A stretch of DNA of 64,000 bases. Source: Ralstonia sp. A12 (GTDB lineage: Bacteria; Pseudomonadota; Gammaproteobacteria; Burkholderiales; Burkholderiaceae). Where the stretch lies: NCBI RefSeq assembly GCF_000801955.1, contig NZ_JSZO01000012.1, positions 62,001 to 126,000 on the forward strand. The letters are read 5' to 3'. Of the stretch, positions 31,930 through 48,595 are shown piece after piece (position 1 is the stretch's first letter; every line of letters begins with the position of its first letter). The notes under the pieces were generated by a model that made no database searches, was not told where the DNA came from, and saw nothing but the letters and a program-made list of their open reading frames with translations. The translations under genes were made by a program, and so were the position numbers.

Positions 31930-31948
31930 GGCGGAAGAGTGACGATGC

Positions 31949-33201: not shown

Positions 33202-33202
33202 C

Positions 33203-34192
33203 TCAATTTCCCTCGTGATGTTGCAGACTGCGTATCACGCTCGTGAAGCCTGGCCCCGCAGTGACGATCAACAAGGCCGGAAGCAGCGTCAGCACCATGA
33301 TCACGGTCATCTTGACGGTCAACTTGCCAACGCGCTCCTTCAACCAGGCACGGCGGCTCTCCTGCAGGCGACCACCAAACTGGCGCAGGGGCTCCTGCAC
33401 AGCACCGCCAAAGCGGTCAACCTGTGTGAGCAGCGTGATCAGGCCCTTTAGATCTTCGTTGTCGAACAGTTTGGCAATGCGCAACAACGTCTGCTCTCGC
33501 GGGCGGCCCGATGCGAACTGCTGGTTGGCTCGACCAAACTCACCGGCCAGCACCGGCAGCATGCTGTGAAACTCATTGGCGATCACCTGCAGGCTCTGAT
33601 CGATCGACAGACCCACCCCTTGCAGCAAACGCAGCATGTCGACCATGACCGGCAACTCGTCATCCACGCGACGGCGTCGGTTCTCTTTGCGGCGCCCGAG
33701 CAACCACTTGGGGCCCAGATAGCCCAGTGCAAAACCGACCATGCCCCACACGAACACAAACAGGATCGACGACGCATTGAGCGCCCCAATAACCGCCAGC
33801 AGTGGCGGCAGCACAATGCGCGTACCACCAAACATGGTGCGCGCGTGTTCGCCGTAGTAGCCACACTCTTCCAGCAGCTTGCGATCTTCCTCGGTGACGA
33901 TGCGGCGCCCCAGGCCCGTATCGATCCAGCGCTGCCCCACTTTGGCAATCTGCTGCTGAATCTTCTGTGCCTCGCGAGGGCCGTGAGGGCTCGCCTTGGT
34001 TGCCGGCGGTACCGCTGGTGCCCCCGTAGTGACCGCCGGATTGGCAGTCGTTGCCCGCATGTTGGATAGCGCCGTATCGAGCTTGCGCGCGCTGCGATGC
34101 CGCGTGAATGCCGCGCGCAGCGCCAAACCGCCAAACACCAGCACACCTGCGGCTGCTGCGGTCAAGCTGAGGGTGATGAGCGTGTCGTCCAT
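33203..34192 (-). CDS. tadC: TadC, type II secretion F-family inner-membrane protein
   Basis: 329 residues. An N-terminal membrane span (LSLTAAAAGVLVFGGLALRAAF), two central spans (residues about 125-165) and a C-terminal span (KMTVIMVLTLLPALLIVTAGP) flank the cytoplasmic T2SSF domain with ELPVMVDMLRLLQGVGLSIDQSLQVIA. TadB and TadC form the inner-membrane platform of the Tad machine. It follows tadB after nine bases. Confidence 0.92.
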   Translation of the reverse strand: MDDTLITLSLTAAAAGVLVFGGLALRAAFTRHRSARKLDTALSNMRATTANPAVTTGAPAVPPATKASPHGPREAQKIQQQIAKVGQRWIDTGLGRRIVTEEDRKLLEECGYYGEHARTMFGGTRIVLPPLLAVIGALNASSILFVFVWGMVGFALGYLGPKWLLGRRKENRRRRVDDELPVMVDMLRLLQGVGLSIDQSLQVIANEFHSMLPVLAGEFGRANQQFASGRPREQTLLRIAKLFDNEDLKGLITLLTQVDRFGGAVQEPLRQFGGRLQESRRAWLKERVGKLTVKMTVIMVLTLLPALLIVTAGPGFTSVIRSLQHHEGN

Positions 34193-34201
34193 GCGCCCCC
34201 C

Positions 34202-35128
34202 TTAGACCGATTTCGCCAGCCGGGCGAGCATGACAGCACCTACCACTTCCATACCGAATGCCGTCATGATCAACGTCTTGCCGAACGGGTCACGCCACAT
34301 CGACATGATGTAGGCGGCGTTGAACATGACAATGACACCACCGACCACCATCGGCAGCAGGCCAATGATCCACGCTGACAAACGGGTCTCGGCCGACAGC
34401 GCAAGCAGCTCGCGCTGAGCATGCTGGCGGTCACGCATGAACGCCGCAGTACGCTCCATCACAATGTCTGCGCGCCCGCCATAGCGTAGAGACAGGCGTA
34501 GCACCGACGACAGCAGGACCAGTTCGTTGACCCGGTATTGCTGCCCAACTGCCAGCACTGCGGCATCAAGATCCTTGCCGGCACGCTGCATTTGTGTGAT
34601 GGCGATCAGGCAAGAGCGTAGCGGTTGCTCGGTGTTTGCACTCGCAGCCTGGAACGCCGCTGGCACAGCGCTACCGATGCTCATCAGGCGTACCACGCCG
34701 TCCAAGAATCCGGGCAGTTGCTGCAGCAGGCGTTCATTCATCTTCCGCGCGCGGTTCCAGAACAGAAAGACCGCAATGGTTGCGTACAGCATGAGCGCGA
34801 TCACCGCAGACAGCAGCCCCAACACCGCCCATGCCACCAGCGCAATCACCAGCGCCGGCGCAACCAACAGCATGTAGAAGCGCCGGCTTGGCTCGATGTC
34901 GGCGCGGCGCAGCGCATCGTTCCAGGCTCGAGTCAGGGAGTCGGGCACGCTGACCGGCGCCGCCTCTGCGTTGGGCTGGTAGCGCGCGTTGATCTGCTCG
35001 GTCTGCACGCGCACGAAGCTGCGTGAAGCTTCTCGCTCACGTCGGCGCACGGACTCCGCCCACAGCATGAGCGACGCGCCCATCAGCAGAAGAGCCAGAC
35101 AGCCGAACCAGAGCGTTGCGCTAGACAT
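34202..35128 (-). CDS. tadB: TadB, type II secretion F-family inner-membrane protein
   Basis: 308 residues. N-terminal membrane span (LWFGCLALLLMGASLMLW), two central spans (LLVAPALVIALVAWAVLGLLSAVIALMLYATIAVFLFW), T2SSF domain with LPGFLDGVVRLMSIGSAVPAAFQ, and C-terminal spans (WIIGLLPMVVGGVIVMF and a last one near the end). Partner of TadC in the platform. Its start overlaps the end of tadA by eight bases. Confidence 0.92.
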   Translation of the reverse strand: MSSATLWFGCLALLLMGASLMLWAESVRRREREASRSFVRVQTEQINARYQPNAEAAPVSVPDSLTRAWNDALRRADIEPSRRFYMLLVAPALVIALVAWAVLGLLSAVIALMLYATIAVFLFWNRARKMNERLLQQLPGFLDGVVRLMSIGSAVPAAFQAASANTEQPLRSCLIAITQMQRAGKDLDAAVLAVGQQYRVNELVLLSSVLRLSLRYGGRADIVMERTAAFMRDRQHAQRELLALSAETRLSAWIIGLLPMVVGGVIVMFNAAYIMSMWRDPFGKTLIMTAFGMEVVGAVMLARLAKSV

Positions 35129-36485
35129 GGAAGCGGCCTCCGTTGCCGAATCCGCTCATGCCACCGTCCATGCCACCGCCGCCCTCCATCCCGTTGTTGC
35201 GCATGCGTGCCAGCTTGGGCGAATGGGGCTGCAGGCCGAGTGCCGTCCAGCGATCGACCTCCTCGCCGTCGGGGCCGATATAGGGCTCGTAGCGATACAG
35301 CTCCTGCGTGGAGATGATGTTGTCGCCCAGCCCGGTGACTTCCGTGATCGACAGGATGCGCCGCTTGCCGTTGGACAAGCGCCCGATCTGCACGATGAAA
35401 TCGATGGCGTTGGTGATCTGGCGGCGCAGGCTCACCTCGCTGCCCTGAAAACCGGCAAAACCCGCCAGCATTTCCAGCCGGTACAGGCATTCGCGCGGGC
35501 TGCTGGCGTGGATGGTGCCCATTGAGCCATCGTGGCCGGTGCTCATGGCCTGCAGCATTTCCAGCACTTCGCCACCGCGTACTTCGCCCACGATGATGCG
35601 GTCCGGGCGCATACGCAGACTGTTGCGCAGCAACTCGCGAATCGTCACCACACCGGTGCCTTCAAAGCCACCGGGCCGGCTTTCCAGGCGCACTACGTGC
35701 GGGTGGTTGAGCGACAGCTCGGCCGTGTCTTCAATGGTGATCACGCGTTCGGTAATCGGGATGTGATACGCCATCGCGTTGAGCAACGAGGTTTTGCCCG
35801 AGCTCGTGCCGCCGCTCACCAGGATGTTGCAGCGTGCCCGCACGGCGGCATCGATCAGCGCGCCAATCTCCTCGTTCATCGTGCCCAGGCCAAGCAGGTC
35901 TTCGGGCTTGAGCGGATCCTTGCGGAACTTGCGGATCGACACCACCGGCCCTTCCAGCGCCAGCGGTGGAATGACCACGTTGATACGGCCACCGTCCGGC
36001 AGGCGCGCATCCACCATCGGGTTGGATTCATCCAGCCGGCGGCCAATCGGCGCGAGGATGCGACGCACAATGCGCAGCAGGTGGTTGTTGTCGGCAAAAC
36101 GCACCGGAATGCGCTCCAGCACACCGTGGCGCGACACGTACACGTCTAGGTGGCCGTTGACGAGAATGTCTTCCACCGCGGGATCGGCCAGCAGATCCTC
36201 AATCGGGCCAAAGCCAGCCAATTCCTTGGTCAACGCCTCTGCAATCTGCCGCACTTCCGTCTCGTTGACGGGAATGCGGCGCATGCGCGTAAAACCTTCG
36301 ACTTCCAGATCGACAAAACGCTGGATGGCGGTGCGCGACCAGCGTCCGAACTCGGCGCCCAGTTCTTCGATGCGTGTGAGCAGATGCTCGTGCGCGGCTT
36401 CCTTGATGTCTTGGAAGGCCTGCGTGACAGCAAACGCGCCGTTGCCTGCGTCCGCCTGGTTGGAAAACTCGATGGGTTGTGTCAT
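35121..36485 (-). CDS. tadA: TadA/CpaF-family secretion ATPase
   Basis: 454 residues. Type IV secretion/pilus ATPase with an N-terminal all-helical domain, then [28 protein letters not shown], Walker [15 protein letters not shown] near residue 223-236, the Asp box [21 protein letters not shown], Walker B-like [16 protein letters not shown] and the His box [11 protein letters not shown]. It powers assembly of the Flp pilus. The C-terminus is Gly- and Met-rich. It overlaps tadZ by four bases and tadB by eight. Confidence 0.95.
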
Positions 36486-37837
36486 GTCGCGTTCCGTCCA
36501 GTGGTACCCAGATCCAGTTCGTCCTGATCTGTCGATTTACGTTTGAGGCGCCCGTCCTGCCCTTTGCCGAATCGCCCGCCAAAGCGCGCGCCCATGCCCG
36601 CCACCCAGCCCGACATGCCCGAGGCGCGCTCGCTCTGCTGGGCATAGCCCAGTGTCTGCGCAATGTTGGCCAGCGCCTTCACATAGACGTCGTTCGGGTG
36701 GGTTTCCGCCAGCATTGCGCCCTGATTGGAGGCGATCACCAGTGCCTCGCGGCGGCTCGGTACCGTCAGCACCGAGGGGATCTCCAAGCGCTCGGCAATC
36801 TGCGCGGCATCCAGCGACAGACGCGTGTCGAACTTCGAGATGGTCAGGTGCAGGTGGTCGCGATCGATCTCGCGCTTCTTCAGCTCCTGCATCAGTTCGG
36901 CAGCCGAGACAATGGCGCCCACGCTCTGCTCGGTCACCAGCATCACGTCGTCGGCGGCCTTGACCAGTTGGGCAATGAAATCAATGTTGCCGAAACCACC
37001 CAGGTCAACCACCTGCAGGTCGAAGAACGTGCGCAGGCGGTTCAGCAGACCGAGCGCCTCGGAGAACGAGATGTCGCGCATCTCCGCCAGCGAGATCGGC
37101 AGCGGCAGCACCGCCAGCCCATTTGGATGGCGTGACAGCGCGGTCTGCACAAACACCTGGTCGAAGCGGCGCAGGTTGCGCACGGCCTCCACAAAGTGGA
37201 AGTTGGCCTGCACGTTCAGGTACAGCGCACCATCACGCAGCGGTTGGCCGAGGTCCATCAGCATCACATCGCTGGCTGACGTACGGCGCACCAGCGTGGC
37301 CAGATTGGCAGCGAGCGTCGTGGCGCCCACGCCTGGGCGCGCGCCGAGCACGGCCAGCACGCGGCCGCGGCGCGTCGGCTCGGTGGAAGCGCGCTCGGCC
37401 AGCAGGCGTCGCACCACGCGCACGGCCTCGGCAGGGGCGCCTTCCACATCAACGAAATCCTTCACACCGGCACGCAGCGCGGCCAGCATGGCACGGCCAT
37501 CGGCTGCCGAGCCCACGGCCACCAGCGGCAACCCCGGGAACAAGCGCGTGAGTTGGCCAACCAGTTGCGTGGCCTCGCCAATGTCGTCGGCACCCTCGCC
37601 CAGCTTCTGGTCCTGATCCGGCACGTCGATCAGCGTGGGGGACGATGCGAAGCGTACGAACACCACTTCGGGATTCACCGAGCCGATCTGCTCCAGAAAC
37701 GCATCGTGACCGGTGGTCTCGGCCACCAGCACACCCAGTTCGCGGATCGCGGCGGCCAGCCAGCGGTGCACGCCCGCTGCCTGCGCATCGCCCTGCACGC
37801 CACCACGTGCGCCACCGTGCAGAAGGAAGTAGTCCAT
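36482..37837 (-). CDS. tadZ: TadZ/CpaE-like pilus localisation ATPase
   Basis: 451 residues. Residues 1-140 form an atypical receiver-like domain. Residues 150-400 form a ParA/MinD-type ATPase with a deviant Walker A, GARPGVGATTLAANLATL, lacking the second Lys, as is usual for TadZ/CpaE. DLGGFGNIDFIAQLVKAADDVMLVTEQS carries the switch regions. TadZ places the Tad machine at its cellular site. The C-terminus is basic (KRKSTDQDELDLG). Confidence 0.9.
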   Translation of the reverse strand: MDYFLLHGGARGGVQGDAQAAGVHRWLAAAIRELGVLVAETTGHDAFLEQIGSVNPEVVFVRFASSPTLIDVPDQDQKLGEGADDIGEATQLVGQLTRLFPGLPLVAVGSAADGRAMLAALRAGVKDFVDVEGAPAEAVRVVRRLLAERASTEPTRRGRVLAVLGARPGVGATTLAANLATLVRRTSASDVMLMDLGQPLRDGALYLNVQANFHFVEAVRNLRRFDQVFVQTALSRHPNGLAVLPLPISLAEMRDISFSEALGLLNRLRTFFDLQVVDLGGFGNIDFIAQLVKAADDVMLVTEQSVGAIVSAAELMQELKKREIDRDHLHLTISKFDTRLSLDAAQIAERLEIPSVLTVPSRREALVIASNQGAMLAETHPNDVYVKALANIAQTLGYAQQSERASGMSGWVAGMGARFGGRFGKGQDGRLKRKSTDQDELDLGTTGRNAT

Positions 37838-37846
37838 GCCTGCCCC

Positions 37847-39214
37847 TTACTGCGAGAAGCCGGGCATGGTGGCCGGATCTGCCACCCCCAGTGCAAACGG
37901 GCGCCAGACAGCCTCGCCTGCGGTGTCACGATCCTGCCCGCCACTTTGGCCGGGCAGCATCTTCTCGATGGGCGCGTTGCGTGCCATCGGTTTGACCAGA
38001 TGCGGCGTCACGATGATCACCAGCTCACGCTCTTCCTGGTTGTAGTTCAGGCGCTTGAAGAACGTCCCGATGATCGGCACGTCGCCCAGGAACGGCACCT
38101 TGTCTACATTGGAAAGCGTCGAACGGCTGACCAGCCCACCGATGACGAAGCTCTCGCCGTCGCCCAGCTCAACCGTGGTATCCGCACGGCGTGTGACGAT
38201 GGCCGGCACGGTCGCGCCGTTGAGCGTGATGCCGCGGCTGAAGTCCAGGTCGCTCGCTTCCGGTGCCACTTTCAGGGCGATGCGGTTTTCCGACAGGATG
38301 GTGGGCGACACCGTCAAACCGATACCGAACGGTTTGTATTCAATCGTGGTGGTGCCCAGCGCCTGCGGCACGGGAATCGGAATCTCGCCGCCGGCCAGGA
38401 AGTTGGCGCTCTGCCCTGACAGGGCCACCAGACTGGGCTCAGCCAGCACGCGCGCCATGCCATTCGATTCAATCAGGCTCAAGTTGGCGAAGATGCCTTT
38501 GCTGACGGAACCAACCAGCAGGTTGAAAGCGGAGCTCAATGGCATGGTCGACTGCGTGCTCAGCCCCGTCGACGGGCTGAACGTGGCCTGTGTCAGCGAC
38601 GACGGCGAGAACGTGCCGAAAGAGAATCCTCCCCTTGTGCGCGTGAAGTTCAGACCGGACTGCTTCAACACCGTCTTGCTGAACTCCACCACACGCACGT
38701 CGACCTGCACGGTGCCCGGCACGTTCATTGAAGTGTTGTCGACCACGTTGCCATTCTTGGGCTTTTCACCGCCACTCGCAGCGGCGGCCGAACGACGCGC
38801 ACGCGCAAGCGCATATACATCCTTGGCCTGACCAGATACCACGGCCGTATCGCCTTGCGAGGTCACATTGGGGTCACCCGGCTCAGACTCGGCGGCATCC
38901 ACCTGCACGTTGTAGGTCGTGGCGGCACCACCTTGCGTCCAGACCATGACGTTGGCTGCCCCCGGTTTCTTCGCGATGATCAACAGGCTATTGGCCGCGC
39001 CGCGCCCCTTGAGCAACAGCGCGTCGGCAATCTCGGGGTTTCCGATCGCAATGCGCTCGAGCGGCTTGCCCAAGCGAATCTCGCGTTGACTACCGGTCAG
39101 CAGATGCAGCGTCTGCCCAGCCGGCGCCGTTTCGGCAAACGCCGTCGATACAAAGACGGCGCAGCCCCACGCGAGTGCGCCCATCCAACCGCGAACCACG
39201 GCGGCATCAGTCAT
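37847..39214 (-). CDS. rcpA: RcpA/CpaC outer-membrane secretin of the Tad pilus
   Basis: 455 residues from ATG 39214, supported by GAGGAG six bases upstream; the frame remains open upstream into cpaB. Signal peptide (GWMGALAWGCAVFVSTAFAE), N-terminal pilus-specific domain (LTGSQREIRLGKPLERIAIGNPEIADALLL), then the secretin core (VQVDVRVVEFSKTVLKQSGLNF, LAGGEIPIPVPQALGT, TPHLVKPMARN). It forms the channel through which the Flp fibre passes. Overlaps the end of cpaB by eight bases. Confidence 0.93.
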   Translation of the reverse strand: MTDAAVVRGWMGALAWGCAVFVSTAFAETAPAGQTLHLLTGSQREIRLGKPLERIAIGNPEIADALLLKGRGAANSLLIIAKKPGAANVMVWTQGGAATTYNVQVDAAESEPGDPNVTSQGDTAVVSGQAKDVYALARARRSAAAASGGEKPKNGNVVDNTSMNVPGTVQVDVRVVEFSKTVLKQSGLNFTRTRGGFSFGTFSPSSLTQATFSPSTGLSTQSTMPLSSAFNLLVGSVSKGIFANLSLIESNGMARVLAEPSLVALSGQSANFLAGGEIPIPVPQALGTTTIEYKPFGIGLTVSPTILSENRIALKVAPEASDLDFSRGITLNGATVPAIVTRRADTTVELGDGESFVIGGLVSRSTLSNVDKVPFLGDVPIIGTFFKRLNYNQEERELVIIVTPHLVKPMARNAPIEKMLPGQSGGQDRDTAGEAVWRPFALGVADPATMPGFSQ

Positions 39215-40133
39215 GTTGCTCCTCACGTTTACCTGCGCGGATGATCTCGACACCGGTGCTGGCAGTGCTGCTGCGAACCGTCGTACGGGCGGCCGCAACT
39301 GCCGGCAACGGTGTGGGCTGCATCAGGACGGGGCGGCGCGGCGACCCTGTCAGGCTGGACATCGACACGCCAGCCTGTGCAACGTCCATCGGGTTGCGAT
39401 TGGCGGCAGCCAGCAGCGCGGCGTCCTGCGGTTTGACGGTTGGTTCAGCGTCGTCACCCGGGTTGCGCAGCGCAAGCAGCAGGCGACCGCTCTGATGCGC
39501 CATCGCCAGTTGGCTGACGGCTTCCACCGGCACCGCCAGCACCGCCGTCTTGGCCTGGTCAACCTTGCGCGTGACCGCGTTGCCGTCGGGCTGCTTCTGC
39601 GCCCCCTCATTGACCGCGAGCGGACCGAACGCCAGCACGCGCAGATGAGGCAACAGCAGTCGTGCCTGACTGTCTTCAATCTCCTGACTGTCCTTACGCA
39701 TCACGAGGAACACGTCTACATAGTCCCCTGGCATGACACGGTTGCCGACACCAACCACTTCATCAACCGTGATGGCCACTGCGCGCTGCCCCGCCTCCAC
39801 CTGCTGCGCCAACCCTGATGCAAGCTGGGAGGCGATCAGCGGCACGCCCACACCAACCGGGAGGATCGGCTCGCGCCCCACCACCTTGGATACATCGGAG
39901 AACGCGTCCGCCGGATTGATCGGCAATTGCTCGACGCCCAACTGGTCTGCCGTGATGGGCTTACCGGCCTCCAGTGGTTTGACGGTGACGACAATCGGAT
40001 ACACCGCCTTGCCGTCCTTCTGCACGGTCACCGGCGCAGGTGGGCGGTGCGCGCTCTTCCATGCCACCGCTCCAAGAATGGCGGCAAGCAGCAGCAGCGC
40101 GGCGGCGAAGATCTGGAGATGTTTGCTGGTCAT
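39207..40133 (-). CDS. cpaB: CpaB/RcpC pilus assembly protein with SAF domain
   Basis: 308 residues. N-terminal span (LQIFAAALLLLAAILGAVAW), a SAF domain (YPIVVTVKPLEAGKPITADQLGVEQLPI, then PILPVGVGVPLIASQLASG) and the CpaB domain (GQRAVAITVDEVVGVGNRVMPGDYVDVFLVMRKD). CpaB/RcpC is a periplasmic partner of the secretin. The C-terminal 60 residues look disordered. Confidence 0.9.
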   Translation of the reverse strand: MTSKHLQIFAAALLLLAAILGAVAWKSAHRPPAPVTVQKDGKAVYPIVVTVKPLEAGKPITADQLGVEQLPINPADAFSDVSKVVGREPILPVGVGVPLIASQLASGLAQQVEAGQRAVAITVDEVVGVGNRVMPGDYVDVFLVMRKDSQEIEDSQARLLLPHLRVLAFGPLAVNEGAQKQPDGNAVTRKVDQAKTAVLAVPVEAVSQLAMAHQSGRLLLALRNPGDDAEPTVKPQDAALLAAANRNPMDVAQAGVSMSSLTGSPRRPVLMQPTPLPAVAAARTTVRSSTASTGVEIIRAGKREEQHD

Positions 40134-40185
40134 CTAGGCAGCCTGTCGATGCAATCAATAAGAGAAGTTAGCGGGCCACAGCACC

Positions 40186-40680
40186 TTAGGAACCCGGCAC
40201 AAGCTGCACGACAGCCGACCCCGTGAGTGTGGACGGCACCGGCAACAGCGGAATAGATGGCAAAAGCGGCGTGGCGCCAGTGGTGACCGGCAGCGTAAGC
40301 ACGACACTCAGGCATTGCATGCTGGCGATGGTCGGGCACGTTACCAGCGGCGATGCACTCTGGTTGGTCGTGACCTGAGAACTGAGGTAAGAAGGCAGCG
40401 CCGTATTGGCAGCCGTGTAAGCGGCTGACACGCGCAGGGTGTTGGAGGTCTGGTAGCGCAGCGCAGCTCGGGCGCCTTCTTCGGCCGCCAGCGTCAGTAC
40501 CTGCTGCATGGCCAGGATCACGCCGTAGTACGCGACGCCGAACATGAGCACCAGAAGCACTGGCAGGACAATGGCAAATTCGACTGCTGTCGCGCCGCGG
40601 CTACCGCGCCGCCTGGCAGCAAACATACGCGCGCCAGAGTGCATCCGCGCACGCTCCCGTTCCCATCGCAATGTCGGCAT
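40186..40680 (-). CDS. tadE: TadE-like minor pilin
   Basis: 164 residues from ATG 40680 (MPTLRWERERARMH), with AAGGAG seven bases upstream; earlier in-frame codons lack a ribosome site. The TadE signature RGATAVEFAIVLPVLLVLMFGVAYYGVILAMQQVLTLAAEEGARAALRY lies at about residues 29-77. The Gly-Ala junction with Glu five residues later is the class IVb prepilin peptidase site. The rest is a soluble exported domain with one disulphide-capable Cys pair (TCPTIASMQC). Confidence 0.88.
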   Translation of the reverse strand: MPTLRWERERARMHSGARMFAARRRGSRGATAVEFAIVLPVLLVLMFGVAYYGVILAMQQVLTLAAEEGARAALRYQTSNTLRVSAAYTAANTALPSYLSSQVTTNQSASPLVTCPTIASMQCLSVVLTLPVTTGATPLLPSIPLLPVPSTLTGSAVVQLVPGS

Positions 40681-40743
40681 GGCCGACTCCTTTCTATAGG
40701 CAGGCCGCTTGGCGGCTCTTGTCCAACTCTTCAACTGTTCTGG

Positions 40744-41295
40744 CTACATACCTGGCAACCACGGCGCCCGCATCACAGTGGGCACCCAAGGCAGGCTCAG
40801 CAATCCGATCGCCATATAGGCCGCATACGGAATACCTCGGCGCCCGGCCTGTGCCGTATCCCAGCGCGTCACAGCGGGGCAGAGTCGCATCACCAGCCAA
40901 GCGGAGGGCAACGACGCATCAAGCTGGCGCAGGGTCTTGATCAGGAGTGCATGCACCCCGGCGATCATGCTGGAGACCAACCACACGGCTACCAGACCGT
41001 GCCAGCCGGCCAGCAACCCCGCTACCGTGAAAAACTTGACGTCGCCCGCGCCCATCCAGCCCAGTGCGTAGAGCGGTAAAAAACAGGCAAATGCGATTGC
41101 CCCGCCGAGCCAGAAATCCTGCCAGTCATAGGCAAGCGCCATCACCCCGCCGAGCTTGATCAACACGATGGACAGCACCAGCCCTGCGGCGACGAGCCAA
41201 TTCGGCACGCGCCGCGAGCGGATGTCCAACGTGATTGCAAGAACTGCGAAAACTCCGACGCTCGCCCAGCCAGCAATATCAACGTGGCTGTACAA
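40744..41295 (-). CDS. cpaA: CpaA/TadV-type prepilin peptidase
   Basis: 183 residues from a TTG at 41295; an in-frame TAG lies 15 bases upstream and no ATG or GTG occurs early, so a rare TTG start is the best reading. Hydrophobic throughout with about five spans. The two catalytic Asp motifs of the aspartyl prepilin peptidases are present: LDIRSRRVPN near residue 24 and the GxGD motif WMGAGDVKFF near residue 85. It should cleave the Flp and TadE leaders. It starts nine bases after the flp stop. Confidence 0.88.
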   Translation of the reverse strand: MYSHVDIAGWASVGVFAVLAITLDIRSRRVPNWLVAAGLVLSIVLIKLGGVMALAYDWQDFWLGGAIAFACFLPLYALGWMGAGDVKFFTVAGLLAGWHGLVAVWLVSSMIAGVHALLIKTLRQLDASLPSAWLVMRLCPAVTRWDTAQAGRRGIPYAAYMAIGLLSLPWVPTVMRAPWLPGM

Positions 41296-41304
41296 GGTGA
41301 GGCA

Positions 41305-41481
41305 CTAGCAGGCGGTAGCGCCGATCGCAGTGCAGAGGCCCTTGAACATGGCTTCGATCTTGACGCCGATTGCGGTGACGGTGGCTACGATCAGCCCAGC
41401 AATCAGGCCGACGATGAGGCCATACTCGATGGCCGTGGCACCTCGTTCGTCGCGAAGGAACTTCAGAACGGCGTTTTTCAT
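41305..41481 (-). CDS. flp: Flp major pilin
   Basis: 58 residues. AGGAG lies eight bases before the ATG at 41481. The leader MKNAVLKFLRDERG is followed by ATAIEYGLIVGLIAGLIVATV. Cleavage after Gly-14 leaves Glu at +5 and Tyr at +6, the Flp motif, and then one hydrophobic helix. The mature pilin is about 44 residues and ends with two cysteines (Cys-50 and Cys-58) that could pair. It is the first gene of the Tad locus, followed nine bases later by the peptidase gene. Confidence 0.95.
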   Translation of the reverse strand: MKNAVLKFLRDERGATAIEYGLIVGLIAGLIVATVTAIGVKIEAMFKGLCTAIGATAC

Positions 41482-42056
41482 GATTGCTCTCCTGTTTGCA
41501 CTCGCCCGCGGATGTGTTGATCTTGACCAGCCTGCGGTGCTCCGGCCGCGACCAGTTCATATTTACGAATAACGGATAAAACGCTTGGGGATTTATAGCG
41601 ATGACACGATCAAAAGAAAATCTTTTCGCCGCGTCGACTTCGTTTTGCTAACAAAACGAAGATGAAATGTCATCAGACGGTCTTGGTCCCGCAAAAACGT
41701 CTAATGACCACCACACGCCCCCAAACCCGTTACCTTATTTCTCGGAATGTCACGGATGTCACGTAACGTCCCGTAACGGTTTTATAGGCGTGCGGCGCCG
41801 CAAACAAAATAACTCAACTGAGGTACTTGCACTCAATTAGAGTGAAGTCTCTATTTAATTTCATTAAAAACGCACCAACCCTCTGAAAACTAATGGAAAT
41901 CCCTTAATGATCGAAAGACTAGATCCATTATATGTGCGGGTTGTCCATTAATCCGGGGCTGGTCGGAACGCTCCCCACTCTCTGTCTTGGCAAAAAAAGG
42001 ATGCGCGAGCGACGGGAACACGCCCGCGCACCTTCAAGAGCACAGACAGGTACTGC
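41482..42056. promoter_or_regulatory. flp upstream region with repeats and a 10-bp inverted repeat
   Basis: 575 bases with no convincing gene. CTTCGTTTTG (41638-41647) and CAAAACGAAG (41652-41661) form a perfect inverted repeat around CTAA. At 41749-41777 GTCACG is repeated nine bases apart (41749, 41758) and CGTAAC ten bases apart (41762, 41772); GTCACGTAAC (41758-41767) recurs in the lipoprotein control region. I found no good -24/-12 promoter for flp. The terminator of the next gene occupies 41992-42032. Confidence 0.55.
41992..42032 (-). terminator. Rho-independent terminator of lipoprotein gene 1
   Basis: On the leftward strand GGTGCGCGGGCG (from 42032-42021) pairs with CGCTCGCGCATCC (from 42011-41999), followed by seven Ts (41998-41992). 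It lies 25 bases past the stop of the 42057-43235 gene and separates it from flp. Confidence 0.85.
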
Positions 42057-43235
42057 TCAGTGCGCCAGGCTGCTTACGCCACCCAGCAAGTTCGTAACAG
42101 GGGCCAGCGGATTGCTGCCCGAGGCCCCGCCGGCTGCGCTGGTCACGCCGCCCAACAGGCCCGTGACAGGCGCCAGGGGGTTGGAGCCACCCGCAGCACC
42201 ACCCAGCAAACCGGTAACAGGGGCCAGCGGATTGCTACCGCCTGCGGCGCCGCTCAGCAGGCCCGTAACCGGCGCCAAGGGGTTGGAGCCACCAGCTGCC
42301 CCGCTGAGCAGACCGGTCACCGGTGCCAGCGGGTTGCTACCGCCCGAGGCGCCACCCACCCCGCCAAGCAAGCCACCCAGCGGATTGCTGCCAGACGAGC
42401 CGCCGGCTGTGCCTACGCCGCCCAGGGCTGCCACCGTCGTTCCAACTGAGGTGACGACCGGGCCCAGGGTCGAAACCACAGGCACGCCCGTTCCGGTGAT
42501 GGTGTTGCCGGCACCGGCCACGCCGCCGCCAACCGTACCCAGCAGCGAGCTGAACGGGCCGCCCAGGCCAGTCATGTCGCCGCCCGATTGCGTGGCGTTG
42601 GTCAGTTGCGTGGTGACGGGAACAATGGCCGAGCTGGCCTGCTGCGTGACTTGTTGTACCGCGCCGGACGACAGCGCGCTGCCCAGCAAGGTGCCTCCGC
42701 CAATCAGCGCTTGGCCAATCTGCTGCACGCCAGCCCCTACCGGCTGCGTGACAGGCGCAAGCGGCGCGCCCGAGCCTTGGCCCAGGCCCTGCACGAGCGA
42801 ACCCGCGCTGACAGCAGTTTGGCCGACATCCGTCACAACGTTGCCGGTGCTGGCCACGGTCGTGCCGATCGGATTCGGGTTCTGGCCCATCTTGCCCAGA
42901 CCGGTTTGTACGCCCAGGCCCAGATCGCTGACGGCCTTGCCGGCGTTGCTGACCGTGCCGCCCAGGCCAGCCTTGGCTTGGTCGGAAAGGCCCGGAATAT
43001 TTGCGTTCTGCAGGGTCGTGCCCAGGCTGCTGACGGCCTGCCCCGTCGCGACGACGGTGTTGCCGGTGCCGTTGGCGACCTTGCCGACAGGCGTCACGCC
43101 CGTCAGATCGTTCGGGCTGGGGCCATTCGGCGAGCTTCCCGAACCCGAACCTCCCGAGGAACAAGCCGCCAGCATGAGGGCAGCAACAGCGCACGCCAGC
43201 GGCGCAACGCGAATGGAGTGGCGAATGTGAGTCAT
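42057..43235 (-). CDS. Repeat-rich lipoprotein 1 (NPLAPVTG repeats)
   Basis: 392 residues. Signal peptide with lipobox LAAC near residue 25, Ser at +2 (outer-membrane sorting expected), then a Gly/Ser spacer. Residues about 55-280 are made of short Gly-Thr-Val units (TGNTVVATGQAVSSLGTT and similar). The C-terminal 100 residues contain five NPLAPVT(G/N) repeats, four spaced exactly 17 residues apart. It is a full-length paralogue of the divergent gene at 43736. Proteins like this are sometimes labelled collagen-like, but Gly is not at every third residue. Its upstream region carries a -24/-12 sigma-54 promoter. Function unknown; probably surface-attached. Confidence 0.85.
   Translation of the reverse strand: MTHIRHSIRVAPLACAVAALMLAACSSGGSGSGSSPNGPSPNDLTGVTPVGKVANGTGNTVVATGQAVSSLGTTLQNANIPGLSDQAKAGLGGTVSNAGKAVSDLGLGVQTGLGKMGQNPNPIGTTVASTGNVVTDVGQTAVSAGSLVQGLGQGSGAPLAPVTQPVGAGVQQIGQALIGGGTLLGSALSSGAVQQVTQQASSAIVPVTTQLTNATQSGGDMTGLGGPFSSLLGTVGGGVAGAGNTITGTGVPVVSTLGPVVTSVGTTVAALGGVGTAGGSSGSNPLGGLLGGVGGASGGSNPLAPVTGLLSGAAGGSNPLAPVTGLLSGAAGGSNPLAPVTGLLGGAAGGSNPLAPVTGLLGGVTSAAGGASGSNPLAPVTNLLGGVSSLAH
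42100..42345 (-). repeat. 51-bp coding repeats arranged as 102-bp doublets
   Basis: Five copies encode (S)NPLAPVT. Four follow at 51-bp spacing; the fifth, nearest the stop, is offset by an 18-bp insertion. Codon choice alternates: units at about 42172 and 42274 share GTTGGAGCC, while those at about 42222 and 42326 share TTGCTACC. The real period is therefore 102 bp, implying growth by doublet duplication. Confidence 0.8.
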
Positions 43236-43313
43236 GGTCCGTCCCCTTCTTTGCTTTGATTGGTTGTATTACCTGATGTCTGAGCTCGGTACTGCGGACT
43301 GCGGGCCAGATTC

Positions 43314-43329
43314 TGCAATTGCCATGCCA
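43314..43329 (-). promoter_or_regulatory. Sigma-54 (-24/-12) promoter of lipoprotein gene 1
   Basis: The leftward strand reads TGGCATGGCAATTGCA: TGGCAT, five bases, TTGCA. GG and GC are 12 bases apart, as sigma-54 requires. The inferred start site near 43303 leaves a leader of about 68 bases before the ATG at 43235. Confidence 0.78.
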
Positions 43330-43641
43330 ATCGCATTAGAGCAAAACCTCGATTTTTGAAGAGTGGCGCCGCAACAAGCTTTGCAGGCAACGCATCCGGT
43401 GATACCCGAATATGGCGGACGGGCGTTACGGGCAGAAAACCAACGTTCCCGGCGTTACGTTGTTACGTGACACGGAACATATTCGGCCCGGACATAACCC
43501 CAATAGCAAACGTTTCCCTCCCTCATTCGTGGGGCAGGGTAAATCCCGCATTTCAGTTAGTTTTCACAATTCCTCCATTTTCTACGGGCAAATCACATTC
43601 GATTCCAATAATCGGTTACGCATGGCGTAATAATCAAAACA

Positions 43642-43657
43642 TGGCACACCGTTTGCA
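43642..43657 (+). promoter_or_regulatory. Sigma-54 (-24/-12) promoter of lipoprotein gene 2
   Basis: TGGCACACCGTTTGCA: TGGCAC, five bases, TTGCA, matching the consensus at every key position. The inferred start site near 43668 leaves a leader of about 68 bases, the same as in the divergent gene. Confidence 0.85.
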
Positions 43658-43735
43658 AGGCTCCGCTACCCAAATCGACATTGGGACCATTTTCCAGCTG
43701 ACAAAAAGCGGACTTTTTAAAACGGGAGAACGATC

Positions 43736-45223
43736 ATGAATAAGAACATCAAGTGCCTGGCAGCCACGATGGCAAGCCTGTTGGTCCTGGGCGGTTGCGC
43801 CAGCTCCGGCTCGGGCGATATGGGGGGGTCGTTGGGGGGCTCTGGCTCTAACGGCACCGGTGGCACCAACAACAATACCGGTGGCTCGACGCCCACGCCG
43901 TCGCCTGCACCTTCGCCTTCGCCCTCTCCGTCGCCTTCTCCCTCCCCTTCGCCGTCCCCGTCGCCCTCGCCGACACCCGCTCCTGCGCCCCTGACGCCCG
44001 CGGGCGTGATCCTCAACAACACGGGCAACGTCGTCACGGCTGCCGGCTCGACGGTTAGCGGTATCGGCTCGGACATCAAGAATGCGCCGCTGCCCTCGCA
44101 GCTGAGCGGTGTGCAGAGCGGCCTGGGTGGTGTGGTGGATAACGTTGGCACGACGGTTTCGGCACTGGGCACGGGCGTGCAGAACGGTCTCGGCAGCATC
44201 GGCCGCAATCCGGATCCGGTTGGCACCACGGTGTCGAGCCTCGGCAATGTGGTCACGGGCGCAGGCAACACGGTCACCAGCGCCGGTACGCTGGTGAACA
44301 ATCTGGGGACTGGCCCGCTGGCGCCGCTGGCTCCGGTGACGACGCCGCTGGCTGGTGTGGTCACGCAGGTTGGCCAGACCTTGGCCAACGGCGGCGGCAC
44401 GCTTGGCACGGCACTGTCGACGGGCCCCGTGCAGCAACTCACGCAGCAGCTCAGCACGGCCATCGTGCCGATCACCTCGCAACTCACCGGTGGCACGCAA
44501 ACGGTGGGGGCAACCACTGGCCTGGGTTCGCCGGGCAACTCGCTGTTGGGCCAGTTGGGCGGTGCGGTCGCTAACGGCGGTAGCGCCATCACCGCAACCC
44601 ATGCGCCGGTCGTCGGCAACCTGGGTGGCGTGGTGACGGCGGTCGGCAACACCGTCGGGGCGCTGGGTGGCGCGGTGTACTCGCCGACGGCGTCGCCGAG
44701 CAACCCGTTGGCACCAATTACCGGTGCACTCGGCGGCTTGGGTGGTACTGGTGGCAGCAATCCGCTGGCGCCCATCACCGGCGCGCTTGGTGGCCTGACG
44801 GGCGGCGCAACGGGTGGTTCCAACCCGCTGGCGCCGATTACCGGTGCACTCGGTGGCCTGGGCGGTGCCGGCGGCAGCAATCCGTTGGCACCGATCACCG
44901 GTGCACTCGGTGGCCTGACGGGCGGCACGGCAGGCGGCACCAACCCGCTTGCCCCGATTACCGGTGCGCTCGGCAGCCTTGGCGGCGCCGCGGGCGGTAG
45001 CAATCCGCTGGCACCGATCACTGGCGCACTCGGTGGCCTCGGCGGTGCCGCAGGCGGCAGCAATCCGGTCAGCTCGATCACGGCGCCGGTAGGCACGGTC
45101 GTCACCACGGTGGGCAGCGGCCTGACATCGGCCGGCGCGACCACGCCGCTGGCACCGGTAACCGGCGCAGTCGGTGGCCTGCTGGGCACGGTGGGCGGCG
45201 CACTGGGCGGCACGCGTCACTGA
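43736..45223 (+). CDS. Repeat-rich lipoprotein 2 (NPLAPITG repeats, Ser-Pro linker)
   Basis: 495 residues, with GGGAG 11 bases upstream of the ATG. Lipobox LGGC near residue 20, a Gly/Asn/Ser stretch, then a Pro-rich linker of about 30 residues dominated by SP dipeptides (residues about 53-83). The core (residues about 88-320) parallels lipoprotein 1 throughout (for example GLGSIGRNPDPVGTTVSSLGNVV against GLGKMGQNPNPIGTTVASTGNVV). It ends in six NPLAPITGAL(G) repeats plus a variant NPVSSIT. It is probably anchored in the outer membrane, with the SP linker spacing the repeats from the surface. Function unknown. Confidence 0.85.
   Translation: MNKNIKCLAATMASLLVLGGCASSGSGDMGGSLGGSGSNGTGGTNNNTGGSTPTPSPAPSPSPSPSPSPSPSPSPSPSPTPAPAPLTPAGVILNNTGNVVTAAGSTVSGIGSDIKNAPLPSQLSGVQSGLGGVVDNVGTTVSALGTGVQNGLGSIGRNPDPVGTTVSSLGNVVTGAGNTVTSAGTLVNNLGTGPLAPLAPVTTPLAGVVTQVGQTLANGGGTLGTALSTGPVQQLTQQLSTAIVPITSQLTGGTQTVGATTGLGSPGNSLLGQLGGAVANGGSAITATHAPVVGNLGGVVTAVGNTVGALGGAVYSPTASPSNPLAPITGALGGLGGTGGSNPLAPITGALGGLTGGATGGSNPLAPITGALGGLGGAGGSNPLAPITGALGGLTGGTAGGTNPLAPITGALGSLGGAAGGSNPLAPITGALGGLGGAAGGSNPVSSITAPVGTVVTTVGSGLTSAGATTPLAPVTGAVGGLLGTVGGALGGTRH
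43890..43990 (+). repeat. Ser-Pro-coding low-complexity tract
   Basis: CCNTCN-type hexamers encode PSPSPS. Third positions vary (TCG, TCC, TCT; CCT, CCG, CCC), so the tract is not a perfect short tandem repeat and is a poor candidate for slipped-strand phase variation. Confidence 0.75.
44699..45068 (+). repeat. 57/63-bp coding repeats with a 120-bp higher period
   Basis: The Asn codon of each NP(L/V) unit falls at 44702, 44759, 44822, 44879, 44942, 45002 and 45062. Spacings are 57, 63, 57, 63, 60 and 60 bases, so every pair sums to 120. Units with LGG-GG and LTGG-TGG linkers alternate. Confidence 0.85.
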
Positions 45224-45245
45224 TCGACACGCAGTTCAACGCACG

Positions 45246-45276
45246 GCGGATCGGCCTGACCGGCCGGTCCGCTTTT
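45246..45276 (+). terminator. Rho-independent terminator of lipoprotein gene 2
   Basis: GCGGA (45246-45250) pairs with TCCGC (45268-45272), with an inner CGGCC/GGCCG stem, followed by TTTT. The rest of 45224-45518 holds no gene. A weak -24/-12-like match (AGGCGG, five bases, TTGCT; 45304-45319) points toward the TpsB gene. Confidence 0.75.
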
Positions 45277-45518
45277 GCGTTTCAAACGCGTTGATGTGGC
45301 GCCAGGCGGCGTCATTGCTGGGCAAACGGGCACGGATTAACACACCATTGGTATCAACCAGGGCGTTGCGCCGCGTGAACGTTGCCTCTATGTGATTTGT
45401 TGTAAAGCACTATGTCTCGCGGTTATCGTTCCATGCAGTGCGCAACCACGCGCGGCGTCGACCGGCCCGGACCGGCTGAACGCTTCACTGCAGAACAAAC
45501 ACCACGGAGGAGACACGC

Positions 45519-47192
45519 GTGCGGAGCACCACGATGCGGTTAGCGCTGGCCACAGGCGTTGCATTGACCAGCCCGGCGTTGAGCTGGGCCCAGAGCAGCC
45601 CCACGCAAGGCAACCCGATCGACACGCTGCCCAAGGTCGACACCTCCCGCCCGCCCGAGCAGAAGATTCAGGTGCAAGTCCAGCGACCAAACCCGGCGCT
45701 GGAAAACCTGCTCGCCACGCATCTCACGCCCACCAAGTTCCAGATCGAAGGCGTCAAGACGCTGCCGTTTCCCGAAATCGCCGCGCACTTCGCGCCGATG
45801 GCCGGGCACGACGTCACCGTCGCGCAGCTGCTGCAGGCCGCCAACGAAGTCACCAAGCTGTATGCAGACCGCGGCTATCCGCTCTCCTTCGCGTTCGTGC
45901 CGGCACAGACGTTTGAAGGCGGCGTGGTACGCATCACCGTGGTGGAAGGCTATGTCGCGCGCATGCGTGTCGAGGGCACGCCCGGGCCGCTGGAGGGTCG
46001 CCTGCGCGAAATCTCGCAGCGCTTGATGGACGAGAAGCCCCTGCGCAAAGAAACCTTTGAGCGCGTGACCGGCGTGCTGGCATTGCAGCCTGGCGTGCAG
46101 ATCACCGCGACCGTGCAGCCGCCCACCACCACCGATGGCGCGAGCGAGTTGGTGCTCAACGTCAAGCGCCAGCCCTACACCATCGGCACCGGCGTTGAAT
46201 ACCGCTCGCCCGGTGTGCGCGCGGTCATCACAGGCACGCTCAACAGCGTGACGCCACTGGGTGAACAGATCACGGTGTCAACGCTGCAGCCGCGCGGACC
46301 GGATCACGAAACGTTCTACTCCGCCACCTGGGCGCAGCCGATCGGTACTGATGGGCTGCTGGCGAAGCTCACGTGGTCGCACTATCGCGGCATGCCAGAG
46401 AACCTGCCGCTTGAGCAACTCGGCTATCAGTCGCGCTACCTGACCGATACGCAACGGCTGGGGCTGTCACTGAGCTATCCGGTGCTGCTGTCGAACACGC
46501 GCAGCCTCACCGTCACGGGCACGTTCTACGGCAACGACGACAAGCAGCAGTACTCGCCGCAGAACCCAGCCATTCCGCAAACTGAGTTGGCCGCCAAGGT
46601 GCGCGTGGCCGGCGCTGAAGCGCTATACACCGAGGTCAATCCAGGCGAGACACGTCGTGCGTCGCTTGGCCTGTACCAGGGCATCAACAGCCTCGGGGCG
46701 GGCAAGTCAGCCAACAACAATGTCGACCTGAGCTTCCTGCGCACACGCGTCACCGCCAGCGAGGCACACGACTTGCCGCTGGGCTTCGGTATCGTAGTCT
46801 CGGGTGCGGCGCAATACAGCGGCGCGGTGCTGCCGTCTTCGGAGCAGATCAGCTTTGGCGGACGCTTCTTCGGCCTGGCCTATCCGGCGGGCGAAGTAGC
46901 AGGCGACCGCGGCTGGGGCGCGTCGGTCGAGCTCAACCGCATGTTCACGGTATCGATGGACTACCTGAAGACCGTGCAGCCCTACGTGCTGTACGACACG
47001 GCCAAGGTGTACTCGAACGGGGGTACGCTGGTGCATGACCAGCTCGGTTCCATTGCGCTGGGCGTGCGCTTCTCAGACCGCAAGTACTACACGCTGGACC
47101 TGGCCGTTGCGCGCCCGGTGGGCGACAAGCCGATCAACTCAAGCTCTCGCAGCTTGCGCTTCACCGCCGCCTATACGTACCAGTTCAACTAG
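45519..47192 (+). CDS. TpsB-family (ShlB/FhaC) two-partner secretion transporter, orphan
   Basis: 557 residues from GTG 45519, preferred over ATG 45534 because GGAGGAG ends six bases before the GTG. Signal peptide ending SWAQ. POTRA domains cover about residues 60-220 (FQIEGVKTLPFPEIAAHFAP, LYADRGYPLSFAFVPAQTFEGGVVRITVVEGYV). A 16-stranded barrel follows, ending in FTAAYTYQFN with a neutral terminal residue (Asn). TpsB proteins export a large TpsA partner with an N-terminal TPS domain. No TpsA is encoded in this window. The VRGY/F motif of loop L6 reads FGGRFFG here. Confidence 0.87.
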   Translation: MRSTTMRLALATGVALTSPALSWAQSSPTQGNPIDTLPKVDTSRPPEQKIQVQVQRPNPALENLLATHLTPTKFQIEGVKTLPFPEIAAHFAPMAGHDVTVAQLLQAANEVTKLYADRGYPLSFAFVPAQTFEGGVVRITVVEGYVARMRVEGTPGPLEGRLREISQRLMDEKPLRKETFERVTGVLALQPGVQITATVQPPTTTDGASELVLNVKRQPYTIGTGVEYRSPGVRAVITGTLNSVTPLGEQITVSTLQPRGPDHETFYSATWAQPIGTDGLLAKLTWSHYRGMPENLPLEQLGYQSRYLTDTQRLGLSLSYPVLLSNTRSLTVTGTFYGNDDKQQYSPQNPAIPQTELAAKVRVAGAEALYTEVNPGETRRASLGLYQGINSLGAGKSANNNVDLSFLRTRVTASEAHDLPLGFGIVVSGAAQYSGAVLPSSEQISFGGRFFGLAYPAGEVAGDRGWGASVELNRMFTVSMDYLKTVQPYVLYDTAKVYSNGGTLVHDQLGSIALGVRFSDRKYYTLDLAVARPVGDKPINSSSRSLRFTAAYTYQFN

Positions 47193-47335: not shown

Positions 47336-48595
47336 ATGTTAAGTTTTTCCAAAGAGTTGCCGATTACCAAGGAAGTCGCGCAGAAGAACAACAATCAACA
47401 CAGCGACAGCGGCCAGCAGCACGTCAGGCCGCAACACGCCGATGGCGAGGGGCAGTCCCCTCAGTCGTCGCAATACGCACCGGGGGCCACCATGCTGCAA
47501 CGTCTATCGGATGACGCAGAATTTCATCGACTCGTCGATACCATCTACGAGGCGGTGCTAGACCCCGCGCAGATGCCGATTGCCCTGGCCTTGCTCTCCG
47601 TCTACGCTGGGGCCGAAAGCGCACATTATTTTGTCTGGGACAAACACACCGACGCGCCGCGCCAAGGCGTTTCGTCGGGTTGGTGCCAGCACTGCCCGCA
47701 ACCGGGCCACTGCAACGCCTTCTGCCAAGACCCTCAACTGCTGCAAGCCCCACAAGCCGAAGACGTGCCTGCGCGGGGCGTGACGTTGATGGACACGCCG
47801 GACCTGAGCATCACCATGCGGCTGCGTACGCGTGACGATACCTCGGAAGTGAGCGCCGCCGAGCGCGAGGAACGCCTGCAGCGCGTCCTGCCCCACCTGC
47901 AGCGCGCCGCACGCATGCAGCAGCGCAATCAGGAGCTGAACGAACTCGCCGCACTCGGCATGGCCGGGCTGGATACGCTCGACTTTGGCGTGATGGTGAT
48001 CGAACGCAGCATGCGCGTGAAATACGCCAACGCATGGGCGCGCACGATGGCCGCAGAAGACGATCGTTTGTCGCTCGATGGCAGCATGTTGCACTCTGCC
48101 GATCACACGCACAACGCGGCACTGCGCAACCTGATTGAACATGCCGCCGGCTCGATGGGCGTGCAAGGCGCTGCTGGCTCGTGGATGTATCTGGCACGCG
48201 ATGGGCGCCCTGTTCCGTTCATTGCTACACCGCTGACCCCTTCCGACGCCATGCGCTCTGCCTGGGCGGCGCCGCTGGCCTTGGTACTGGTGGGCAATTC
48301 CGAGGCACGCTCCGTCATGGATGCGGGTGTACTCGCCTCGCTCTTCGGGCTGACGAACAAGGAATGCATCGTCGCCGCACGCCTGGCCGCCGGCGAAACC
48401 CTGCAAGAAATCGCTGACCGCGAATTCCTGTCGCTGCACACTGTGCGCGTGCACATCCGCGACATCCTGCGCAAGACCGGCACGCATCGCCAATCCGAAC
48501 TCGTGCGCCTGCTGCACCTGCTGCCAAGCGTCGACTTGGAGCGCGCCGGAGCCGCCACCCCCGCCTCACGTCGGCGCACTCGCCTGAACGCCTGA
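47336..48595 (+). CDS. LuxR-type (GerE HTH) transcriptional regulator
   Basis: 419 residues from ATG 47336; a start at 47492 (MLQRLSDDAEF) is equally possible, since the first 50 residues are low-complexity. The central part is PAS-like (LDFGVMVIERSMRVKYANAWARTMAAEDDRLSL). Two Cys/His pairs sit near residue 118 (WCQHCPQPGHCNAFC). The C-terminal GerE helix-turn-helix is FGLTNKECIVAARLAAGETLQEIADREFLSLHTVRVHIRDILRKTGTHRQSELVRLL. No autoinducer or receiver domain is seen. It follows the TpsB gene by 143 bases in the same direction. Target unknown. Confidence 0.85.
   Translation: MLSFSKELPITKEVAQKNNNQHSDSGQQHVRPQHADGEGQSPQSSQYAPGATMLQRLSDDAEFHRLVDTIYEAVLDPAQMPIALALLSVYAGAESAHYFVWDKHTDAPRQGVSSGWCQHCPQPGHCNAFCQDPQLLQAPQAEDVPARGVTLMDTPDLSITMRLRTRDDTSEVSAAEREERLQRVLPHLQRAARMQQRNQELNELAALGMAGLDTLDFGVMVIERSMRVKYANAWARTMAAEDDRLSLDGSMLHSADHTHNAALRNLIEHAAGSMGVQGAAGSWMYLARDGRPVPFIATPLTPSDAMRSAWAAPLALVLVGNSEARSVMDAGVLASLFGLTNKECIVAARLAAGETLQEIADREFLSLHTVRVHIRDILRKTGTHRQSELVRLLHLLPSVDLERAGAATPASRRRTRLNA

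Follow-up and report, generated by a model that had tools for sequence, protein, structure and literature searches.

The locus

The window, by which we mean the whole 64-kb stretch of DNA analysed, carries two divergent lipoprotein genes (A and B) beside a tad/flp pilus gene cluster. The features relevant to the control of these two genes are as follows.

28786–30183, minus strand: sigma-54 enhancer-binding protein with Sigma54_activat domain, Fis-type HTH and GAFTGA motif, the GtrR-type candidate activator, at the end of the tad operon
30199–41295, minus strand: tad genes (TadG-, TadD-, TadC-, TadB-, TadA-, TadZ-, RcpA/CpaC-, CpaB-, TadE- and prepilin peptidase-like), assigned in part by Pfam/NCBIfam
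41305–41481, minus strand: Flp pilin gene, 58 aa
41762–41777, minus strand: a pair of GTTACG copies preceding flp and conserved in all 15 Ralstonia sequences
42057–43235, minus strand: lipoprotein A, 392 aa, lipobox LAAC at 22, Pfam Collagen_mid (by Pfam and lipobox pattern)
43314–43329, minus strand: putative lipoprotein A promoter, sigma-54 type -24/-12, TGGCAT-N5-TTGCA (TGGCATGGCAATTGCA), by motif and 15-row Ralstonia alignment
43425–43430, plus strand: extra GTTACG half-site, weakly conserved (motif and alignment)
43453–43480, no strand: main enhancer-like element, a CGTTACG/CGTAACG inverted repeat followed by TGACAC-GGAAC, about 130–190 bp upstream of both -24 boxes
43615–43630, no strand: TTACGC-N3-GCGTAA, the second inverted repeat, separated by about 11 bp from the -24 box of B that follows it
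43642–43657, plus strand: putative lipoprotein B promoter, sigma-54 type -24/-12, TGGCAC-N5-TTGCA (TGGCACACCGTTTGCA), by motif and 15-row Ralstonia alignment
43736–45223, plus strand: lipoprotein B, 495 aa, lipobox LGGC at 18, Pfam Collagen_mid (by Pfam and lipobox pattern)
45519–47192, plus strand: TpsB/ShlB-type outer-membrane transporter adjoining lipoprotein B, start codon provisional

Several of the tad gene names within 30199–41295 are our presumptive assignments, made in part by position. To the right of the TpsB gene lie genes for a LuxR-type regulator (47336–48595) and a GGDEF-EAL protein. On the other side, the activator gene is followed by a DUF2968 gene (27891–28679), a relative of which stands beside the activator in 9 of the 13 non-Ralstonia genomes fetched, and a gene at 24503–27742 encodes a cytochrome P450-reductase fusion with P450, flavodoxin, FAD and NAD domains.

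Lipoproteins A and B matched PF15984 (Collagen_mid) with 195.4 and 213.8 bits, respectively, at a cut-off of 31.1, and are 58% identical over the domain. When solved structures were searched with the sequence of lipoprotein A, the single match had an E value of 0.8 and is not meaningful. The preliminary description of this DNA regarded the lipoproteins as having no known function; passages of PMC10224339, in contrast, put the PF15984 class forward as adhesins, and A and B are probably adhesive.

Two conserved -24/-12 elements, probable sigma-54 promoters

Sigma-54 promoters are marked by GG at -24 and GC at -12, with a consensus near TGGCAC-N5-TTGCW. Such elements had been described for both lipoprotein genes, and we found exact matches at both places, with the canonical GG-to-GC spacing in each. 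With zero mismatches, TGGCAYN5TTGCA matched only promoters A and B within the window, and the perfect form occurred 21 times in the whole 6.1 Mb genome versus 4 times for a reversed-pattern control. When up to two mismatches were allowed, the window held 54 matches versus 50 in shuffles, which is no excess, and so the case for the promoters rests on the perfect form and on conservation.

Conservation was assessed in an alignment of sequences from 15 of 16 Ralstonia genomes, the window's own included, in which gene A was recovered together with the DNA upstream of it; in one of the 16 (G002, 90% complete), the activator was present and the lipoprotein pair was not found. The GG and GC elements were kept in all 15 sequences. 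The boxes were invariant at 11 of 11 positions in each of A and B, and the spacer at 1 of 5 positions in A and 5 of 5 in B, the entire 16-base B promoter being identical in 15 of 15 rows, while the other inter-promoter DNA had only 35 of 266 positions invariant. The window's own genome encodes two sigma-54 genes as well as the GAFTGA-containing activator.

From these sequence comparisons, both lipoprotein genes very likely have sigma-54 promoters. The matches could instead be fortuitous and the pair transcribed from sigma-70 promoters, a reading with which the lack of excess at two mismatches agrees, but the invariant boxes flanking a variable spacer, the genome-wide surplus of the perfect motif over its reversed control and the recurrence of sigma-54 sites at related loci (see below) make it extremely improbable.

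GTTACG elements between the promoters

GTTACG starts at 43425, 43454, 43462 and 43615. A cluster of these sites between the promoters had been noted previously and is real, although its limits had been set slightly off, at 43435–43471, and the fourth site, at 43615, had been missed. Four copies in the 312 bp of inter-promoter DNA were equalled by none of 5000 dinucleotide shuffles, whereas across the whole window GTTACG was not enriched (16 copies versus 13.8 expected). Nor were GTTACG-type repeats by themselves in excess across the whole genome: CGTTACGNNGTWACG matched 157 times at up to two mismatches (control, 569) and CGTWACGTGACAY 15 times at up to one mismatch (control, 32).

In the 15-row Ralstonia alignment, the core at 43453–43480 was invariant at 22 of 28 positions, a larger share than in the remaining inter-promoter DNA; 43613–43630 was invariant at 9 of 18 positions. 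Most Ralstonia rows have a perfect CGTTACG-N-CGTAACG centre, of which the window copy, CGTTACGTTGTTACG, has one half-site altered. The distance between the starts of the half-sites ranges from 7 to 13 bases, a variability that one rigid dimer site would not usually show. At the sequence level, activator-type sites are found upstream at about 100–200 bp, supporting a role of the GTTACG sites as putative enhancer-type elements.

The GTTACG copies upstream of flp lie in a different setting. The segment 41762–41900 is very strongly conserved among the 15 Ralstonia sequences and contains GTTATTTT, TTTGCG and GCACGCCTATAAA, followed by the GTTACG copies. No -24/-12 element was seen before flp, either in the 15-row Ralstonia alignment or in a strict motif scan, although a weaker promoter may exist there. 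None of the four Cupriavidus-type loci has GTTACG in front of flp. Because GTTACG precedes flp without a -24/-12 element and the second inverted repeat lies so near the B -24 box, the binding protein may also use sigma-70 promoters or repress; the repeat very close to the B promoter may mediate repression at high occupancy.

Sigma-54 sites and GTTACG at Collagen_mid loci across the family

The best 80 of 100 matches from one search of genome contigs gave 79 distinct Collagen_mid loci. In the interval that begins 2300 bp before the Collagen_mid match and ends 60 bp within it, TGGC[AG]YN5TTGC[ATG] was present at 60 of these 79 loci, which are related, so that the counts do not represent independent events. 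Three control intervals of the same size contained such a site in 3, 0 and 0 of 74 loci. These interval controls were made because a first control, counting strict sites outside the upstream interval (27 in 2.61 Mb of strand), was rejected: many of those sites are, by position, promoters of neighbouring or longer Collagen_mid genes themselves. A tighter test, with A or T as the last base and a 760 bp interval, found sites at 45 of these 79 loci, where the remaining DNA of the loci would predict 0.6. The sigma-54 site was missing at 19 of the 79, some of which are cut contigs and some unlinked Ralstonia paralogues.

GTTACG accompanies these sites. Ahead of the 60 sites, 19.2 kb of DNA held 149 copies of GTTACG/CGTAAC, compared with 320 in the other 1.286 Mb of these loci, an enrichment of about 31-fold in the 320 bp before the sigma-54 sites. 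At least two copies were present at 55 of the 60 sites, namely 20 of 21 at tad-linked loci and 35 of 39 at loci not classed as tad-linked. Another 12 loci were picked because they have a sigma-54 site near flp, and all 12 had at least three copies upstream of the promoter.

The loci span Ralstonia, Cupriavidus, Burkholderia, Paraburkholderia, Trinickia and Collimonas, with several promoter sequence types. The same divergent arrangement was seen in all four Cupriavidus-type loci, where GTTACG palindromes lie between the two sigma-54 sites of the pair, although some of the eight promoters do not follow the strict pattern through its last base. Burkholderia-type loci have a single promoter divergent from flp, which would serve one gene or a tandem pair. 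A TpsB-type transporter gene beside Collagen_mid lipoprotein genes is also kept across genera: it was present in 16 of 18 loci listed and in 5 of 5 collagen-bearing loci of the set of activator neighbourhoods. No TpsA gene was noticed next to the window's TpsB gene.

A GtrR-type candidate activator at the end of the tad operon

An orthologue of the enhancer-binding protein was present in 16 of 16 Ralstonia genomes. Its N-terminal domain was detected in 108 of the 200 genomes of the family, of which 92 belong to other genera; in all 13 non-Ralstonia genomes fetched from these 92, the activator adjoins tad genes. The Fis-type recognition helix is near invariant among 14 aligned activator proteins, and the GAFTGA motif of the window protein is GSFTGA in some relatives. 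The N-terminus matched no Pfam receiver family, so the activator is probably under the control of a partner or ligand rather than of phosphorylation.

The best solved relative is PDB 7vbs/7vbw, to which residues 7–465 of the window protein, nearly the full length, align with an E value of 2.3e-171. We take 7vbs, which is labelled a sigma-54 dependent regulator, to be GtrR; it is near identical to the tad-linked activator of a Burkholderia-type genome (G026, 993 bits). In Burkholderia, GtrR is controlled by RpfR with BDSF and c-di-GMP. Passages of PMC9684580 describe GtrR (BCAL1536) as a regulator downstream of RpfFR that affects motility, biofilm and virulence, and passages of PMC10224339 name BCAL1525 as the flp gene of B. 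cenocepacia. On the grounds of homology, locus position and locus-tag numbering, we infer that the tad-linked activator is the orthologue of GtrR (BCAL1536), and the protein encoded at 28786–30183 is most likely the activator of the pair.

Association of the compound pattern with the activator gene

We searched 200 family genomes for the compound pattern GTTACG-N118..148-TGGCRYN5TTGCA, which was present in 66 of the genomes with 112 matches, versus 19 matches for the reversed pattern. It was found in 61 of the 108 genomes with the activator versus 5 of the 92 without it (Fisher p = 8.8e-16), an association that is partly phylogenetic because many of the genomes without the activator are small; the reversed-pattern control occurred in 12 of the 108 and 6 of the 92, respectively. 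At the spacing searched, 47 of the 108 activator genomes had no compound pattern.

Loci were also fetched by the pattern alone, blind to protein content. Among 30 loci fetched of the 112 matches, 20 had a Collagen_mid frame and 10 had none. A slightly looser pattern in eight chosen genomes gave 24 matches versus 7 for its reverse, with a Collagen_mid frame at 19 of the 24 loci, some of which overlap one another, and none at 5. In a B. cenocepacia genome (G200), this looser pattern gave three matches (reversed control, one) at two promoters, one before a Collagen_mid gene divergent from flp and the other before a second, unlinked Collagen_mid gene whose neighbour encodes a carboxymuconolactone decarboxylase. 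The latter setting fits that published for bcam0695 in passages of PMC10224339, and the BCAM0695-like gene matches Pfam Collagen.

The two compound matches in the window's own genome are not those of the pair, whose spacing and orientation fall outside the pattern; one of them is the site of a UDP-sugar dehydrogenase gene. Among the 19 other strict sigma-54 sites of this genome, three have GTTACG/CGTAAC within 320 bp, two of them with more than one copy, at the UDP-sugar dehydrogenase gene and at a DUF7696 gene. Three loci outside the window were noted. At L153 (G000:C59:281834), a UDP-glucose/GDP-mannose dehydrogenase gene lies downstream of a sigma-54 site that has GTTACGTAAC some 130 bp ahead of it, and the block GTTACGTAACGCGAAACGTTT is common to L153 and pattern matches in G004, G005 and G007; this dehydrogenase is a possible polysaccharide member of the regulon. 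At L147 (G000:C13:41953), the gene that follows the sigma-54 site encodes a DUF7696 protein of 93 aa, and GTTACG/CGTAAC occurs three times upstream of the site. At L301, in Cupriavidus pauculus, three GTTACG/CGTAAC copies accompany a sigma-54 site in front of a short gene whose product weakly matches a response regulator.

The promoters could be of the sigma-54 type and yet the GTTACG sites be bound by another regulator, such as the LuxR-type protein of the right flank, with the tad-linked activator acting elsewhere. The LuxR gene is indeed part of the cluster and present in the corresponding regions of 12 of 14 relatives, the remaining two of which end at contig edges, and the GTTACG copies at flp, where no -24/-12 element was seen, would suit such a protein. 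Within flanks of about 8 kb, however, the gene was found solely in Ralstonia loci, whereas GTTACG and sigma-54 sites together extend to Cupriavidus, Burkholderia, Paraburkholderia and Trinickia, and the compound pattern tracks the activator gene. The LuxR protein is accordingly disfavoured as the conserved GTTACG binder, and control by some regulator other than the tad-linked activator is unlikely overall.

Leaders and the origin of the pair

The preliminary description had read equal leader lengths as the mark of an inverted duplication that kept its promoter. Under one convention for the transcription start, both inferred leaders in the window are indeed 69 nt long. The equality is found in the window only: across the 15 Ralstonia sequences the leader of A ranges from 54 to 72 nt and that of B from 66 to 70 nt, and it is therefore most likely a coincidence. 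An attenuator in the leader was considered and rejected, the hairpins of leader B being short (-11 to -22 kcal/mol) and the predicted folds differing between relatives; an Rfam search of 41000–46000 gave no match at E values up to 1.

In a domain tree of 58 rows, in which 15 of 55 inner branches were left open, A and B of Ralstonia (RalA, RalB) and of the Cupriavidus type (CupA, CupB) formed separate clades within one loosely supported group (83/97), and RalB adjoined an unlinked Ralstonia paralogue (92/91). For the paralogue type near RalB no sigma-54 site was found (L045, L051). A scan of 18 of 20 loci of Ralstonia Collagen_mid paralogues (all but L048 and L060) found no near-consensus -24/-12 element within 350 bp of the frame, the one exception being TGGTTGGCGGGCTGCT, which lies inside two frames that start at an internal match.

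That A and B are paralogous, and that Ralstonia and Cupriavidus-type loci both hold a divergent pair with one sigma-54 site per gene, would be compatible with a recent inverted duplication that carried its promoter along. Such an event nevertheless appears improbable, given that the leaders are equal in the window alone, that A and B form separate clades older than the Ralstonia species sampled, and that RalB clusters with an unlinked paralogue. A duplication within the sampled Ralstonia species is not supported; an older duplication is possible.

Comparison with known systems

The preliminary description knew of no described system of this kind. Related observations exist for Burkholderia: passages of PMC7970998 report that BCAL1520, BCAL1523, BCAL1524 and BCAL1533, like flp genes, are induced by contact with vesicles of host membrane. 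BCAL1523 and BCAL1524 are homologues of lipoproteins A and B, and the likely activator of the A and B genes would be an orthologue of a described regulator, GtrR. The collagen-like proteins of the Burkholderia cepacia complex (Bcc-CLPs, PF15984) are described as putative adhesins in passages of PMC10224339, which name the Collagen_mid genes bcal1523, bcal1524 and bcam0695 as highly induced on host-membrane contact; the main text of PMC7970998 contains no occurrence of BCAM0695. Like A and B, the Bcc-CLPs are lipoproteins with the PF15984 domain encoded beside flp. The window, however, holds a divergent pair with a promoter for each gene, whereas BCAL1523/1524 is a tandem pair, and A and B, unlike the Bcc-CLPs, showed no long GXY repeat, their longest runs being 3 and 4 triplets. 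The words 'promoter' and 'sigma' do not occur in PMC10224339. Adjoining BCAL1523/1524 is BCAL1522, annotated as related to heme utilization in passages of PMC10224339 and PMC7970998; by synteny, we take it for the TpsB-type gene.

GtrR resembles the window activator in its position at the locus, judged by tag number, and in the near full-length homology of the latter to 7vbs; the window protein is the putative Ralstonia orthologue, for which coupling to RpfR is hypothetical. The literature passages covered gave no GtrR binding site, which the original GtrR study may report. BerB with RpoN in B. cenocepacia (berA and bep genes) is likewise a pairing of sigma-54 with a c-di-GMP-responsive enhancer-binding protein at biofilm matrix genes, but its activator and targets differ from those proposed here (passages of PMC5552954), and neither 'collagen' nor 'flp' occurs in that text. 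In B. dolosa, passages of PMC5234846 table the response-regulator gene AK34_1641 with the type IVb pilus genes of the tad cluster AK34_1641–1653 and report that it rises with the pilus genes in a fixLJ deletion mutant; AK34_1641 would be the same activator as the tad-linked one. The B. dolosa text ties no collagen-like lipoproteins to this cluster, the word 'collagen' being absent from it (PMC5234846).

A model for shared control of the lipoprotein pair

The intergenic region would act as a common control region for two collagen-like lipoproteins of a Tad (Flp) pilus locus. We favour, with a probability of roughly 0.78, shared sigma-54 control of these Tad-linked lipoproteins by a GtrR-type activator encoded in the tad operon and binding GTTACG. 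In the proposed mechanism, sigma-54 RNA polymerase very likely occupies the two outward-facing -24/-12 promoters, and a hexameric AAA+ activator, most likely the product of 28786–30183, a putative GtrR orthologue by homology and synteny, would bind the GTTACG/CGTAAC half-sites about 130–190 bp ahead of each promoter and, by looping the DNA and hydrolysing ATP, open the two promoters together. The signal to the activator is probably a partner or ligand, as with RpfR, BDSF and c-di-GMP in Burkholderia, rather than phosphorylation. The lipoproteins and the pilus, perhaps with a polysaccharide-precursor gene in Ralstonia, would be switched on jointly for surface attachment.

Sigma-54 promoters, the PF15984 protein family and the activator family are already known. 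What is new is the family-wide link of Collagen_mid genes with sigma-54 and the activator, together with the GTTACG site and its spread. This link, the site and its spread were absent from the literature found; part of this may be reported in the original GtrR study and in the study of the B. cenocepacia sigma-54 regulon.

The same putative sigma-54 and GTTACG wiring in related genera points to a shared adhesion regulon run by the activator of the pilus cluster. A broader proposal, tentative and in our judgement rather doubtful, is that the GtrR-type activator and sigma-54 form an ancient attachment regulon of the Burkholderiaceae, whose core targets are collagen-like lipoproteins exported to the surface by the adjacent TpsB; if so, a two-partner-type pore would serve lipoproteins rather than a TPS-domain adhesin.

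For a type of regulator with ties to quorum sensing and attachment in Burkholderia, the analysis offers a concrete candidate DNA site, GTTACG/CGTAAC about 130–190 bp upstream of a -24/-12 promoter, and a short list of targets. It may also explain the joint induction of genes for collagen-like lipoproteins located at distant places in the genome.
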